A DNA stretch of 64,000 bases from Kiloniellaceae bacterium (GTDB lineage: Bacteria > Pseudomonadota > Alphaproteobacteria > Kiloniellales > J153): contig JAJFGL010000068.1 in the NCBI GenBank assembly GCA_021776135.1, positions 1-64,000 on the forward strand, read 5' to 3'. Shown here piece by piece: positions 17,978-21,585 of the stretch. Each line of letters starts with the position of its first letter. Position 1 is the first letter of the stretch. A program made the translations under genes and the position numbers. The notes beneath the pieces are model-generated. The model was not told the DNA's origin and ran no database searches. It saw only the letters and a list, made by a program, of their open reading frames with translations.

Positions 17978-18382
17978 ATGAAACACAAGATCCTGGTGAT
18001 CGATGACGAAGAGAATATCCGCAAGACCATACGCCTGCAGCTCGAAGGGACCATCTACGAGGTTCTTGAGGCCGAGGACGGGGAAAAGGGCATCCAGGTG
18101 CTCGGCAACGAGAACATCCTGGAGGTCGTCGTGATCATCTGCGATGTCCGCATGCCCAAGGTCAACGGCATCGAGGCCGTCGCCTACTTCCACAAGAATT
18201 ATACCTCCCTCCCGATCATCGTGCTGACCGGTTATCCGGACGTGCAACTGGCGGTCGATTTCATGAAGGGCGGCGTGGTCGATTACCTGGTCAAGCCGGT
18301 GGAGAAGGAAAAGCTGGTGGAGGCGGTCCACAAGGCCGCCCGACAGCACACCATCTTCAGCGGGTCTCAGCCGAAGGTGTGA
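17978..18382 (+). CDS. Single-domain response regulator
   Basis: CheY-like receiver of 134 residues with no output domain. Phosphorylation-site residues are complete: acidic pair Asp9/Asp10, phospho-acceptor Asp56 (IICDVRMP), Thr84 (VLTGYPD) and Lys106 (YLVKPVEK). The ATG at 17978 follows the kinase stop by one base and has GGGGAGG at 17962-17968. It is presumably phosphorylated by the adjacent kinase and passes the signal on by protein contact; the target is unknown. After the stop, a G+C-rich inverted stretch (18386-18416) may end transcription. Confidence 0.92.
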   Translation: MKHKILVIDDEENIRKTIRLQLEGTIYEVLEAEDGEKGIQVLGNENILEVVVIICDVRMPKVNGIEAVAYFHKNYTSLPIIVLTGYPDVQLAVDFMKGGVVDYLVKPVEKEKLVEAVHKAARQHTIFSGSQPKV

Positions 18383-18483
18383 TACCCGCGCCGGCGGGCT
18401 CCGCGGCGCCGGCGCGGTGCCGCCCGGCCCTCACTTGCGTTGCCCGTATCCTCGCTACACCAGGGCGTGATCGGCGTCGGCTC

Positions 18484-18513
18484 TTGACAAGGCGGCCGAC
18501 AATACTGTTTGAT
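18484..18513 (+). promoter_or_regulatory. Predicted promoter of the methionine operon leader
   Basis: TTGACA at 18484-18489 is a perfect -35 box; TTTGAT (18508-18513, 18-bp spacer) is the best -10 candidate. A start site about seven bases later would be near 18520, exactly where the SAM-II aptamer begins, which supports the choice. Confidence 0.6.
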
Positions 18514-18519
18514 GATCCT

Positions 18520-18572
18520 AGCGCCGATTTGAGAGCTTAGCTTGCGGGCGCTTTACAAATGCGGCTAAAGCG
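18520..18572 (+). ncRNA. SAM-II riboswitch (metA RNA motif)
   Basis: Aptamer that senses S-adenosylmethionine upstream of methionine-synthesis genes. P1 is GCGCC (18521-18525) with GGCGC (18547-18551). The loop begins with the conserved GATTT (18526-18530). Pseudoknot strands: TTGC (18542-18545) with GCGG (18561-18564), and GCTT (18535-18538) with AAGC (18568-18571). The conserved ACAAAT and GGCTAAAGC blocks are in the expected places. The order of elements matches the well-studied environmental metX aptamer. Its position ahead of osmC-metY-metA is the classical alphaproteobacterial context. Confidence 0.92.
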
Positions 18573-18591
18573 AGCGGATGTTTCCGCCCGG

Positions 18592-18613
18592 CAGCCGCCG
18601 CGGCGGTTTTTTT
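18592..18613 (+). terminator. Intrinsic terminator in the methionine leader
   Basis: A G+C-rich hairpin (18593-18598 with 18603-18608, core CCGC/GCGG) is followed by seven T (18607-18613). It lies 20 bases after the SAM-II aptamer, with a small hairpin (GCGGA/TCCGC, 18574-18587) between. AGCCGC at 18593-18598 is also fully complementary to GCGGCT at 18561-18566 in the aptamer, giving a candidate antiterminator. Confidence 0.8.
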
Positions 18614-18638
18614 GTGCCCGCCCTCTTGGGGACGGCTC

Positions 18639-18688
18639 ACGCGGGATTTGAGGGGCAGCTTGCACCGCGTCACCAAAGCTAAAGCGCC
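18639..18688 (+). ncRNA. Second SAM-II/SAM-V-like aptamer in tandem
   Basis: A second structure with the same order of conserved blocks: P1 ACGCGG (18639-18644) with CCGCGT (18665-18670), loop starting GATTTGAG (18645-18652), CAGCTTGC (18656-18663), and CAAAGCTAAAGC (18674-18685). The stretch between P1 and GCTAAAGC is shorter than in the first aptamer, which recalls SAM-V rather than SAM-II. A hairpin ATGTCCA/TGGACAT (18693-18712) follows, and the osmC ribosome site AGGAG is at 18736-18740. Pseudoknot pairing is less clear than in copy one, so confidence is lower. Confidence 0.65.
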
Positions 18689-18749
18689 ACGGATGTCCAG
18701 ATGCTTGGACATGCGTGGGCCCTTAACCGAGTAATAGGAGTTCCACGTC

Positions 18750-19277
18750 ATGTCCAAGAATTTCAAGCAAGTCTACGACAACACCCAGTCGGCCCTGCGC
18801 GATGCGCCCGGGCAATCCACTGTAACCTTTGAGGCCACGTCCCGTCAGGCCGCGGGGCTGCGCAGCGAAATCTCGATCCGCCAATTCAACTTCGCTGTCG
18901 ACGAGCCGGAGTCCCTGGGCGGCGAGGACAGCGCCGCCAGCCCGGCCGAACTTTTGCTGGCCTCCCTGGCCTCGTGTCAGGAGATCACCTACCGCCTTTA
19001 CGCCGACGCGCTGGACATTCCACTGACCAGTGTCGCGGTGCGGATCGAAGGCGACCTCGACCTGCGCGGTTTTTTCGCCATCGAAGATGGCGTGCGGCCC
19101 GGCTTTCAATCGATCCGCGCCACCGTCCACCTGGATAGCCCGGCGCCGGAATCGGAGCTGACCAGGCTGAAGGAAACCGTCGACAACCATTGCCCGGTGC
19201 TCGATATCGTGCAGCGCGCGACGCCGGTCGAAATAAGTTATGAGCGCGTGCCGCCGCGGCAAAGCGCCGTCGCTTAA
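18750..19277 (+). CDS. OsmC family protein
   Basis: OsmC/Ohr-fold protein of 175 residues, a family of thiol-dependent peroxide reductases and related small proteins. The two redox cysteines are visible: LLLASLASCQEITYRLY and DNHCPVLDIVQRATPVEI. The residues around them fit the general OsmC/YhfA group rather than Ohr. The ATG at 18750 has AGGAG 9-13 bases upstream. It is first in the operon with metY (28-bp gap) and metA behind the SAM-responsive leader, so it is probably linked to sulfur assimilation or to protection of thiol intermediates; the exact job is unknown. Confidence 0.9.
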   Translation: MSKNFKQVYDNTQSALRDAPGQSTVTFEATSRQAAGLRSEISIRQFNFAVDEPESLGGEDSAASPAELLLASLASCQEITYRLYADALDIPLTSVAVRIEGDLDLRGFFAIEDGVRPGFQSIRATVHLDSPAPESELTRLKETVDNHCPVLDIVQRATPVEISYERVPPRQSAVA

Positions 19278-19305: not shown

Positions 19306-20604
19306 ATGGCCATCGATACTAAGAATCCCGAGACACTGGCCCTGCACGCCGGTTACCGCGCCGACCCCACAACCGGGGCGGTCGCGGTGCCGATTTATCA
19401 AACCACGGCCTACCAGTTCGATCATTCTCAACACGCGGAGAATCTTTTCGCCCTGAAGGAGATGGGCAACATCTACAGCCGCATCATGAATCCGACCAAC
19501 GATGTTTTAGAACAGCGCGTGACGGCGCTGGAAGGCGGTGCGGCGGCCCTGGCCCTAAGCTCGGGCCAGGCCGCCTCGGCCATCGCGGTGCAGAATATCG
19601 CCCAGGCCGGCGACAACATCGTATCCTCGACAGACCTTTACGGCGGCACCTGGAATCTCTTCGCCAATACCTTCAAGACCATGGGCATTGAGGTACGCTT
19701 CGTCGATCCCGCCGACCCGCAGGCCTTCCGCAAGGCAACCGACGACAAGACCCGCGCCTTTTATGCCGAGACCCTGCCCAACCCGAAGCTGAAGGTCTTC
19801 CCGATCCGCGAGGTCGCCGACATCGCAAACGACATCGGCATCCCGCTTATCGCCGACAACACGGCGGCGCCGATCCTGTGTAAGCCGCTCGAACACGGCG
19901 CCCACATCGTCGTGTATTCGACCACCAAGTATATTGGCGGTCACGGTACCTCGATCGGCGGCCTGATCGTCGATGGCGGCACCTTCGATTGGGAAAAACA
20001 CGCGGAGCGCTTTCCCATGCTCAACCAGCCCGACCCCAGCTACCACGGCGCGGTCTGGACCGAGGCGACCAAGCCCCTGGGCCCCGTGGCTTATATCATC
20101 AAGGCCCGGGTCACCTTGCTGCGCGATCTGGGTTCATCCATGTCGCCCTTCAACGCCTTCCAGTTCATTCAGGGTTTGGAAACACTGCCCCTGCGGATGC
20201 GGGAACACTGCCGCAACACCCAGGCGACCGCCGATTTCCTAGCCAATCACGAGGCGGTCGAAACCGTGATCCATCCCAGCCGCCACACGGGCGAGGACAA
20301 GCGCCGGGCCGATACCTATCTGCAAGGCGGTTACGGCGGGCTGCTCGGCTTCGAACTCAAGGCCGGTAAGGAGGCCGGGCGGCGCTTCATCGACGCGCTT
20401 CAATTATTCTATCACGTCGCCAACATCGGCGACGCGCGCAGCCTGGCCATTCACCCGGCGACCACCACCCACTCGCAGCTATCAAGCGAAGAACGCTTGG
20501 CGACCGGCGTGACCGACGGCTATGTCCGCCTGTCTATAGGCATCGAGCATATCGACGACATCCTGGCCGACCTCGGCCAAGCGCTAAAAGCCTCGAACGG
20601 CTAA
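19306..20604 (+). CDS. metY: O-acetylhomoserine sulfhydrylase
   Basis: PLP enzyme that makes homocysteine from O-acetylhomoserine and sulfide in direct sulfhydrylation. The 432-residue protein matches the family: ETLALHAGYRADPTTGAVAVPIYQTTAYQF, NIYSRIMNPTNDVLEQR, and the PLP-lysine STTKYIGGHGTSIGG. The long region after the PLP site (GGTFDWEKHAERFP, YHGAVWTEA) separates it from cystathionine gamma-synthase. ATG at 19306 has GAGGGAGAG upstream; an earlier in-frame start at 19240 overlaps osmC and is not supported. The next gene, metA, would supply the substrate. Confidence 0.95.
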   Translation: MAIDTKNPETLALHAGYRADPTTGAVAVPIYQTTAYQFDHSQHAENLFALKEMGNIYSRIMNPTNDVLEQRVTALEGGAAALALSSGQAASAIAVQNIAQAGDNIVSSTDLYGGTWNLFANTFKTMGIEVRFVDPADPQAFRKATDDKTRAFYAETLPNPKLKVFPIREVADIANDIGIPLIADNTAAPILCKPLEHGAHIVVYSTTKYIGGHGTSIGGLIVDGGTFDWEKHAERFPMLNQPDPSYHGAVWTEATKPLGPVAYIIKARVTLLRDLGSSMSPFNAFQFIQGLETLPLRMREHCRNTQATADFLANHEAVETVIHPSRHTGEDKRRADTYLQGGYGGLLGFELKAGKEAGRRFIDALQLFYHVANIGDARSLAIHPATTTHSQLSSEERLATGVTDGYVRLSIGIEHIDDILADLGQALKASNG

Positions 20605-20625: not shown

Positions 20626-21585
20626 ATGCCGATCAAGATACCGAATAATTTACCGGCGCGCCCTATTCTTGAGCGCGAGGGCGTGCGGATCATTAGCGAA
20701 ACCGACGCCATCCGGCAGGATGTCCGGCCCTTGCGTATCGCCCTGCTCAACCTCATGCCCGACAAAATCCGCACCGAGACCCAGTTCGCGAGGGTCATCG
20801 GCTCGACCCCCTTGCAGGTCGAGATGACCTTGCTCAATACCGGCTCTTATAAGTCGCGCAATACGCCGGAAAGCCACCTGATCGACTTTTACAAAACCTG
20901 GGACCAGGTTCGCGGCGAGTTCTTCGACGGTCTGGTCATCACCGGCGCCCCGGTCGAAACCATGCCCTTCAAGGAAGTGGACTACTGGCCCGAGCTGTGC
21001 CAAATCCTCGACTGGGCCCAGACCAACGTCTATCGCGGGTTCTACGTGTGCTGGGGCGCCCAGGCCGCGCTCCAACACTACCACGGAGTGCCGAAGCATC
21101 ATCTGCCGCGCAAGAAGTTCGGCATCTTCCGCCACCGCATCGTCAAGGCGGAATCAAGCCTGCTGATCGGCTTCAACGACGAGTTCTCGATCCCCGTATC
21201 GCGCCACACCGAAACCCGCAAAAGCGACCTGCCGGACAAGCCGGGCCTGAACGTGCTGGCGGAATCCACGGAGTCCGGCCTGTGCCTCATGGAGGATATT
21301 CGGCACCGCGCGGTCTATATGTTCAATCATCTGGAATACGACGCCGATACCCTGAAAGGCGAATACGAACGCGACCTCGAAGCCGGAGAGTTGATCCAAA
21401 TCCCGGAAAACTATTTTCCCGGCGATAACCCCGACCATCCGCCGACCAATCAATGGCGCTCCTACGCTCACCTCCTATTCTGGAACTGGATCGGCGAGAT
21501 GTATCAGCACACCCCCTTCGACATCGCCAAGATAGGCGCCAAATGCGCCGCGGCGGCGCGGGGGGATTTGGATAAGGCGGGGTGA
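20626..21585 (+). CDS. metA: Homoserine O-acetyltransferase, MetA family
   Basis: Activates homoserine for methionine synthesis. The 319-residue protein is of the MetA (glutamine-amidotransferase-like) fold: FYVCWGAQAALQHY with catalytic Cys142, RHTETRKSDL with the histidine, and HLEYDADTLKGEYERD with the Glu/His region. Residue 111 is Glu (GAPVETMPF). Work on MetA proteins showed Glu at 111 favours acetyl-CoA and Gly favours succinyl-CoA, so this should be an acetyltransferase despite the usual family name. That agrees with metY 21 bp upstream. Confidence 0.93.
   Translation: MPIKIPNNLPARPILEREGVRIISETDAIRQDVRPLRIALLNLMPDKIRTETQFARVIGSTPLQVEMTLLNTGSYKSRNTPESHLIDFYKTWDQVRGEFFDGLVITGAPVETMPFKEVDYWPELCQILDWAQTNVYRGFYVCWGAQAALQHYHGVPKHHLPRKKFGIFRHRIVKAESSLLIGFNDEFSIPVSRHTETRKSDLPDKPGLNVLAESTESGLCLMEDIRHRAVYMFNHLEYDADTLKGEYERDLEAGELIQIPENYFPGDNPDHPPTNQWRSYAHLLFWNWIGEMYQHTPFDIAKIGAKCAAAARGDLDKAG

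Follow-up and report, generated by a model that had tools for sequence, protein, structure and literature searches.

The window, a 64,000-nucleotide (nt) stretch from a Kiloniellaceae bacterium (contig JAJFGL010000068.1, positions 1 to 64,000), contains an osmC-metY-metA operon whose leader probably acts as a two-level S-adenosylmethionine (SAM) OFF switch, shutting off the genes first at transcription and then at translation. The leader fills the 367-nt gap from the end of a response-regulator gene at 18382 to the start of the osmC-like gene at 18750; all features of the window described here lie on the forward strand. It contains two SAM-II aptamers, a terminator with an antiterminator after the first aptamer and competing segments after the second, and the sequence and the statistics on related leaders establish these parts and their conservation. 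Both copies are SAM-II by their structure and conserved core and not by the Rfam cut-off. In a cmscan search with lax filters, RF00521 had the lowest E-value of all models at each of them, which bears out the initial annotation in its claim of tandem SAM aptamers, the second having the same conserved blocks. Judged by sequence and folding energy, the leader would have a bi-mechanism layout, with a terminator after the first aptamer and control of the ribosome-binding site (RBS) after the second. Each copy is expected to bind SAM, the rejection of S-adenosylhomocysteine (SAH) being included in the definition of the class.

The core of the first aptamer (18520-18571) lies within an RF00521 match at 18511-18589 (33.2 bits, E 1e-05). 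The SAM-II riboswitch that had been placed at 18520-18572 is upheld by this sub-gathering score, by the core and by the structure. P1 (18520-18525/18547-18552) is accompanied by GAUUUG (18526-18531), L1 (18532-18539), GCUUGC (18540-18545) and GCUAAAG (18564-18570); P2b pairs 18540-18543 with 18568-18571, and the 3' strand of P2a, GAGC at 18572-18575, can pair with GCUU at 18535-18538, including one G-U. The spacing of 18 nt between GCTTGC and GCTAAAG is that of the RF00521 consensus. An intrinsic terminator follows at 18584-18613, with a 9-bp stem (18584-18592/18597-18606) containing the bulged C18601, a loop at 18593-18596 and a U7 run at 18607-18613. A terminator had previously been assigned to 18592-18613; it is real, but it starts further 5', with the stem from 18584. 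The stem 18584-18606 has an energy of -17.6 kcal/mol, and a consensus scan gives a smaller stem at 18593-18608. The antiterminator (18561-18598) pairs GCGGCU (18561-18566) with AGCCGC (18593-18598), encloses the hairpin GCGGA 18574-18578/UCCGC 18583-18587 and overlaps the SAM-binding core in the GCU of GCUAAAG. Enforced folds of the antiterminator and the terminator are near-isoenergetic (-21.7 vs -21.3 kcal/mol), and the terminator is the fold that forms when the P2 strand of copy 1 is held away. In these models, the design of copy 1 resembles an OFF switch: at low SAM, the GCUAAAG strand would pair with the 5' part of the terminator and polymerase would continue, and at high SAM the P2 pseudoknot would lock this strand and the terminator would form.

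The second aptamer (18639-18688) is matched by RF00521 at 18631-18702 with 23.1 bits (E 0.0058). It consists of P1 (18639-18644/18665-18670), GAUUUG (18645-18650), L1 AGGGGC (18651-18656), GCUUGC (18658-18663), L3 (18671-18677), GCUAAAG (18678-18684), P2b (18658-18661/18682-18685) and P2a (18654-18656/18686-18688). As the initial annotation had noted, the segment before GCTAAAG is shorter than in copy 1 (14 vs 18 nt after GCTTGC). In an alignment of 55 rows, which comprises the window and 54 hand-chosen relatives selected by motif, 98.1% of the P1 cells are paired, with two-sided changes in 4 of the 5 pairs, and P2b is paired in 97.7% of cells. For the whole structure, six pairs show two-sided changes, compared with a mean of 1.9 after shuffling. 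In its classical form, P2a is weak and only 2-3 bp long in this subtype, its third pair failing in 28 of the 55 rows. Some flaws were retained in the alignment, namely the misaligned 5' end of L051 and parts of L126 and L034. Judged by sequence, copy 2 is a SAM-II element with a shorter L3 that belongs to a recurring subtype, and the shorter L3 is not a mark of SAM-V.

This subtype is widespread. The short-L3 pattern was found in at least 118 stretches in named genomes, and the 80 titles listed include Bosea, Microvirga, Chelatococcus, Roseomonas, Nisaea, Thalassobaculum, Azospirillum and Rhodoplanes, with a few outside the Alphaproteobacteria; since the search pattern defines this sample, the conservation of the core there is partly by construction. 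In a class-wide draw of 289 genomes, a slightly wider pattern matched 30 times, in 26 genomes, and its reversed form never. From 199 motif hits, 196 remained after the removal of three with a P1 of less than 5 bp, comprising 147 short-L3 elements, 48 long-L3 elements and one with a 9-nt L3. Removing one element that was too short and 32 redundant ones left 114 short-L3 elements, of which 94 have a Shine-Dalgarno (SD) sequence. Genes found behind short-L3 examples encode pyridoxal phosphate (PLP) enzymes of cysteine (Cys) or methionine (Met) metabolism (metY type and others), ABC-NIL proteins (MetN type), NlpA and CysG. It is unlikely that copy 2 has lost its ligand or, as a variant aptamer, binds a different one such as SAH, or that it is a decaying duplicate. 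The low Rfam score of 23.1 and the altered L3 would suit this explanation, but GAUUUG, GCUUGC and GCUAAAG are all intact, and the subtype recurs in Alphaproteobacteria with two-sided changes in P1, in the class-wide numbers given above and in front of the sulfur-related genes just listed.

The tandem arrangement is also conserved among relatives. By BLAST of the leader against 58 genomes including the one of the window, with the rows read manually, both copies were found in one leader in 29 of the 57 relatives, 25 of them with a single alignment over query positions 21-184 or more and four with two neighbouring alignments; the tandem cases were partly checked by motif or by eye. In some relatives, the first copy ends with GCTAAAC and escapes the search motif. 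A metY sequence marker is present in 22 of 26 tandem loci (from 25 genomes; G013, G042, G050 and G056 are left out of this gene count), and no metY marker was seen in L078 and L028 among these 26. In L011 and L012 an osmC-like open reading frame (ORF) comes first, and metY is visible for L011. The motif recognises both copies in 31 tandem leaders, and a T-run of at least five lies between them in 27. A first automatic search had identified terminators in at least two loci (L121 and L156); because it was too strict, the inter-copy sequences with T-runs were tabulated and the terminator of the window was folded.

Downstream of copy 2, four segments form a putative translational platform. Segment A (CCACGGAUGUCCA, 18687-18699) is the antisequestor arm, whose first two bases are common to P2a; segment B (CUUGGACAUGCGUGG, 18704-18718) can pair either with A (on) or with C (off); the tail GCCC (18719-18722) is complementary to GGGC at 18653-18656 in L1; and segment C (CCACGUCAUGUCCAAG, 18743-18758) spans the start codon (18750-18752) and is paired with B in the minimum free energy fold. 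The SD sequence of osmC (AGGAG) is located at 18736-18740. Enforced over 18683-18770, A:B and B:C have energies of -27.8 and -29.9 kcal/mol, respectively, and L1:tail belongs to a duplex of 6 bp, one of them G-U, at -10.6 kcal/mol. At low SAM, the A:B hairpin would form and L1 would hold the tail, so that B is occupied and the ribosome site of osmC is open. At high SAM, P2 would fold in those transcripts that escaped termination and take L1; the tail would be freed, A would lose bases to P2a and the freed B would pair over the osmC start codon. Translation of osmC would thereby be blocked, and metY and metA, which are presumably coupled to it, would be shut down as well.

The pseudoknot lies outside the folding model, and therefore covariation was relied on instead. 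When the partners were permuted among elements, which leaves the relatedness among them in place, the L1:downstream pairing gave a z of 8.3 (114 non-redundant elements) and the pairing of the A/B region with the RBS a z of 6.1 (94 non-redundant elements); the control pairing L1:RBS showed no excess (z -0.1). Among the 83 elements with a simple A/B motif, the last four bases of L1 are fully complementary to the tail in 49, with 20.2 expected under independence, and both sides change together, being GGGC/GCCC in 26 and GAGC/GCTC in 23. By eye, metY leaders commonly have GAGGGGC vs GCCCCTC, and the metY-like leader L223 and the osmC-like leader L167 have GAGGATC vs GATCCTC. A separate class-wide draw of 25 elements, nine of which resemble the first set, supports the L1:downstream complementarity more modestly: the observed helix score is reached in 12 of 5000 permutations for all 25 elements and in 121 of 5000 for the 16 new ones.

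The openness of the SD sequence was modelled for 65 elements kept for having an SD and an L1 complement. The mean unpaired fraction was 0.33 in the free state. It was 0.46 when the tail was blocked to mimic the SAM-free form, 0.31 when the P2 strand was blocked to mimic the SAM-bound form, and 0.35 when other 4-nt stretches were blocked; for the element of the window, the respective values were 0.23, 0.52, 0.23 and 0.24. Between the SAM-free and the SAM-bound model, 42 of the 65 elements shift as expected. These models and the genes served favour SAM OFF, which is the direction that we infer for the second switch. Plain thermodynamic folding was dropped as evidence, as the pieces fold about like shuffles: for three of the four leader pieces there is no gain over shuffles (z 0.05, -0.34 and 1.49), and for 18631-18760 the gain is slight (z -1.50, reached by 14 of 200 shuffles).

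The opposite direction, an ON switch in which L1:tail is the P2a of the SAM-bound form, A:B is an inserted hairpin and SAM opens the ribosome site, is quite unlikely. It has been retained because the classical P2a comprises only 2-3 bp and L1:tail, which covaries, could in principle coexist with P2b; the OFF design suggested by copy 1 speaks against it. It is also improbable that copy 2 acts at transcription like copy 1, or that the pair merely sharpens the dose response in a pseudo-cooperative manner without a translational step. Published tandem SAM-II pairs do include double-terminator cases, as described in the accessible part of the report (PMC9481103), but here the A:B hairpin has no U-run behind it, B shows complementarity to the start region, and that of A/B to the RBS recurs in relatives.

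Several points weigh against the two-level OFF switch. Both copies (33.2 and 23.1 bits) remain below the RF00521 gathering score of 36 bits, so that a default Rfam scan reports neither. P2b shows no two-sided change in the 55 rows, and P2a is paired in just 81.2% of cells. The antiterminator helix (at least 5) is exact in just 18 of the 31 tandem leaders, and the A/B motif in its simple scanned form is absent from 37 of the 147 short-L3 elements. For the 16 new elements, a stricter exact-match test was weak and not significant, both with 4 nt (9 vs 6.5, reached in 179 of 2000 permutations) and with 5 nt (2 vs 1.7, reached in 1061 of 2000). Besides the relatedness that the permutations retain, the choice of the 65 elements for an L1 complement favours the tail model, in which 11 of them shift in the opposite direction and 12 are unchanged; moreover, Vienna does not fold pseudoknots, so that blocked bases had to stand in for the L1:tail and P2 states. 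Finally, a scan of 18380-18760 found no sigma-70 promoter-like site.

The genes of the operon were identified by protein family matches, in agreement with the osmC-metY-metA order proposed at the outset. The first gene (18750-19277) encodes an OsmC-family protein (PF02566, E 8e-21), metY (19306-20604) an O-acetylhomoserine sulfhydrylase (TIGR01326, 615 bits, cut-off 495) and metA (20626-21585) a homoserine O-acyltransferase (PF04204, above the cut-off). The MetA protein is nearest to the acetyl type (NF047918, 437 bits, under the model's cut-off of 460.5). The remaining Rfam matches of the leader (Bp2_287, isrD, isrK, tfoR and CRISPR-DR28) are all far under their gathering scores. In the 3.96-Mb genome, the core pattern GATTTG-N5..9-AGCTTGC-N14..18-GCTAAA occurs at three places, the two copies of the window and one on contig C8, and the reversed pattern, which served as control, at none. 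The latter site (G000:C8:31465-31542; L001, L065) is the second SAM-II locus of the genome, a single element of the copy-1 type with 36 bits that precedes a rhodanese-domain gene and, further on, a gene whose translation reads as metZ-like.

A wider proposal concerning copy 2 is tentative, and we give it somewhat less than an even chance. It would represent a SAM-II sub-lineage that is mostly missed by standard annotation and has a dedicated translational platform with L1 as an anti-anti-SD (L1:tail vs P2, A:B vs B:RBS). Standing alone, it would gate sulfur genes across Alphaproteobacteria and, in Bosea and other genera, short Cys-ending leader ORFs, with the RNA sensing SAM and the ribosome sensing cysteine in one and the same leader. 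Regarding annotation, SAM_alpha reached the Rfam gathering threshold in one of 18 chosen short-L3 loci and stayed below it in 17, and a lax search of eight other loci gave one element over the threshold (L051, 42.5 bits), the rest being listed under it. Many SAM-II elements with a short L3 thus seem to score too low for the Rfam cut-off, and the annotation of the alphaproteobacterial SAM regulon may therefore be incomplete. Individual loci show further arrangements. For instance, L040 (G006:C421) carries a pair of short-L3 elements, at 649 and 1888, separated by 1.2 kb of the same contig, and L099, from a metagenome-assembled genome titled Actinomycetota, has two near-identical ones 3.8 kb apart (3343 and 7181), which may reflect horizontal transfer or misbinning. 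In L053 (G001:C72), a core-like sequence at 335-371, in which GCTTGC and GCTAAA are only 9 nt apart, lies upstream of a SAM-II match at 451-525 (28.7 bits) before a cysG-looking gene; this core-like sequence may have degenerated from a copy or may fold differently.

Regarding the leader ORFs, 116 short-L3 elements are solitary by motif, and in 67 of these the ORF served by the SD has no more than 50 codons. Cys is present in 55 of the 67 short ORFs, and CC or CxC in 29. Cys codons make up 8.1% in frame, compared with 3.3% after nucleotide shuffling (maximum 4.7% in 200); the contrast between frames is modest because frame +1 reaches 6.1%, with 2.1% in frame +2. Cys stands 3-6 residues before the stop in 76 of 126 cases. 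Ten peptides, among them several from Bosea, keep 22 residues, end mostly in CxCRR or CCCRR-like sequences and use both TGC and TGT codons; eight short peptides tested gave no NCBIfam match at E<=1. Short ORFs with Cys-rich ends such as CCCRR or CRCRR, at an SD under predicted riboswitch control, were seen in L145, L157, L171, L133, L173, L205, L214 and others. The next gene in the tested examples encodes part of an ABC transporter or is another possible sulfur gene, and that of L133 has no Pfam match. A combination of a SAM riboswitch with a Cys leader peptide is possible as judged from these sequences. Terminator-like sites occur within 160 nt downstream in just six of the 67 short ORFs, and thus an attenuation mechanism is merely a guess. 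If true, the link would make dual control by SAM and cysteine testable.

The remaining alternative, a SAM-II followed by a SAM-V aptamer as in Pelagibacter bhmT, is highly improbable: the layout is alike, with the terminator first and RBS control second, and the accessible text of the SAM-V structural study describes a binding core common to both classes (PMC6061858), but SAM_V (RF01826) has no match at E<=10 in 18300-18900 or at E<=1 in eight loci with related elements, and the second half of the leader matches RF00521 instead. According to the same text, a P3 stem-loop separates P1 from an A-rich L3 in SAM-V, the SD lies within or next to P2a and, in the crystal structure, P1 has 4 bp (PMC6061858). 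In copy 2, P1 has 6 bp, L3 is CACCAAA, whose 7 nt have no room for P3, so that copy 2 is not SAM-V, and 47 nt separate the end of P2a (18688) from the SD (18736). Thus, the suggestion that copy 2 is SAM-V or an intermediate form finds no support, and the relation to the Pelagibacter pair stands as an analogy in layout with a second aptamer that is SAM-II here.

In the literature searched, with most subscription papers outside it, neither the copy-2 sub-lineage, nor the L1:tail pairing, nor SAM-II gating of Cys-rich leaders was found described. The probable stacking of transcriptional and translational control by one ligand provides a compact natural test case for whether such an arrangement sharpens or economises regulation. 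The presence of an OsmC-family gene (18750-19277) at the head of a SAM-riboswitch methionine operon has a parallel in Candidatus Pelagibacter, where, as far as the accessible text goes, osmC and ordL adjoin bhmT and are listed downstream from the SAM-V riboswitch, and osmC rises under sulfur limitation (PMC5069961); by analogy, this hints at a sulfur-linked role of OsmC.

As far as the accessible parts of the cited reports go, three known systems can be compared with the osmC-metY-metA leader. The SAM-II riboswitch of Sinorhizobium meliloti metA also sequesters the SD before metA, but it is a single aptamer with the SD inside the riboswitch, unlike the separate downstream three-strand platform here (PMC9373788). 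The bhmT leader of Candidatus Pelagibacter shares the order of transcription and then translation; its second aptamer is SAM-V, whereas it is SAM-II here, and the operon differs (PMC9481103; PMC5069961; PMC11508383). The closer published precedent is the set of 44 tandem SAM-II/SAM-II riboswitches, some of which have the terminator first and RBS control second (PMC9481103). They share two SAM-II aptamers per leader and, in some cases, this division of labour; no L1:tail pairing is described in the accessible text, and the 44 may include the leaders discussed here. Thus, the layout, a tandem acting at transcription and then at translation, is already known in kind, and the copy-2 sub-lineage with its own switching parts is under-recognised.
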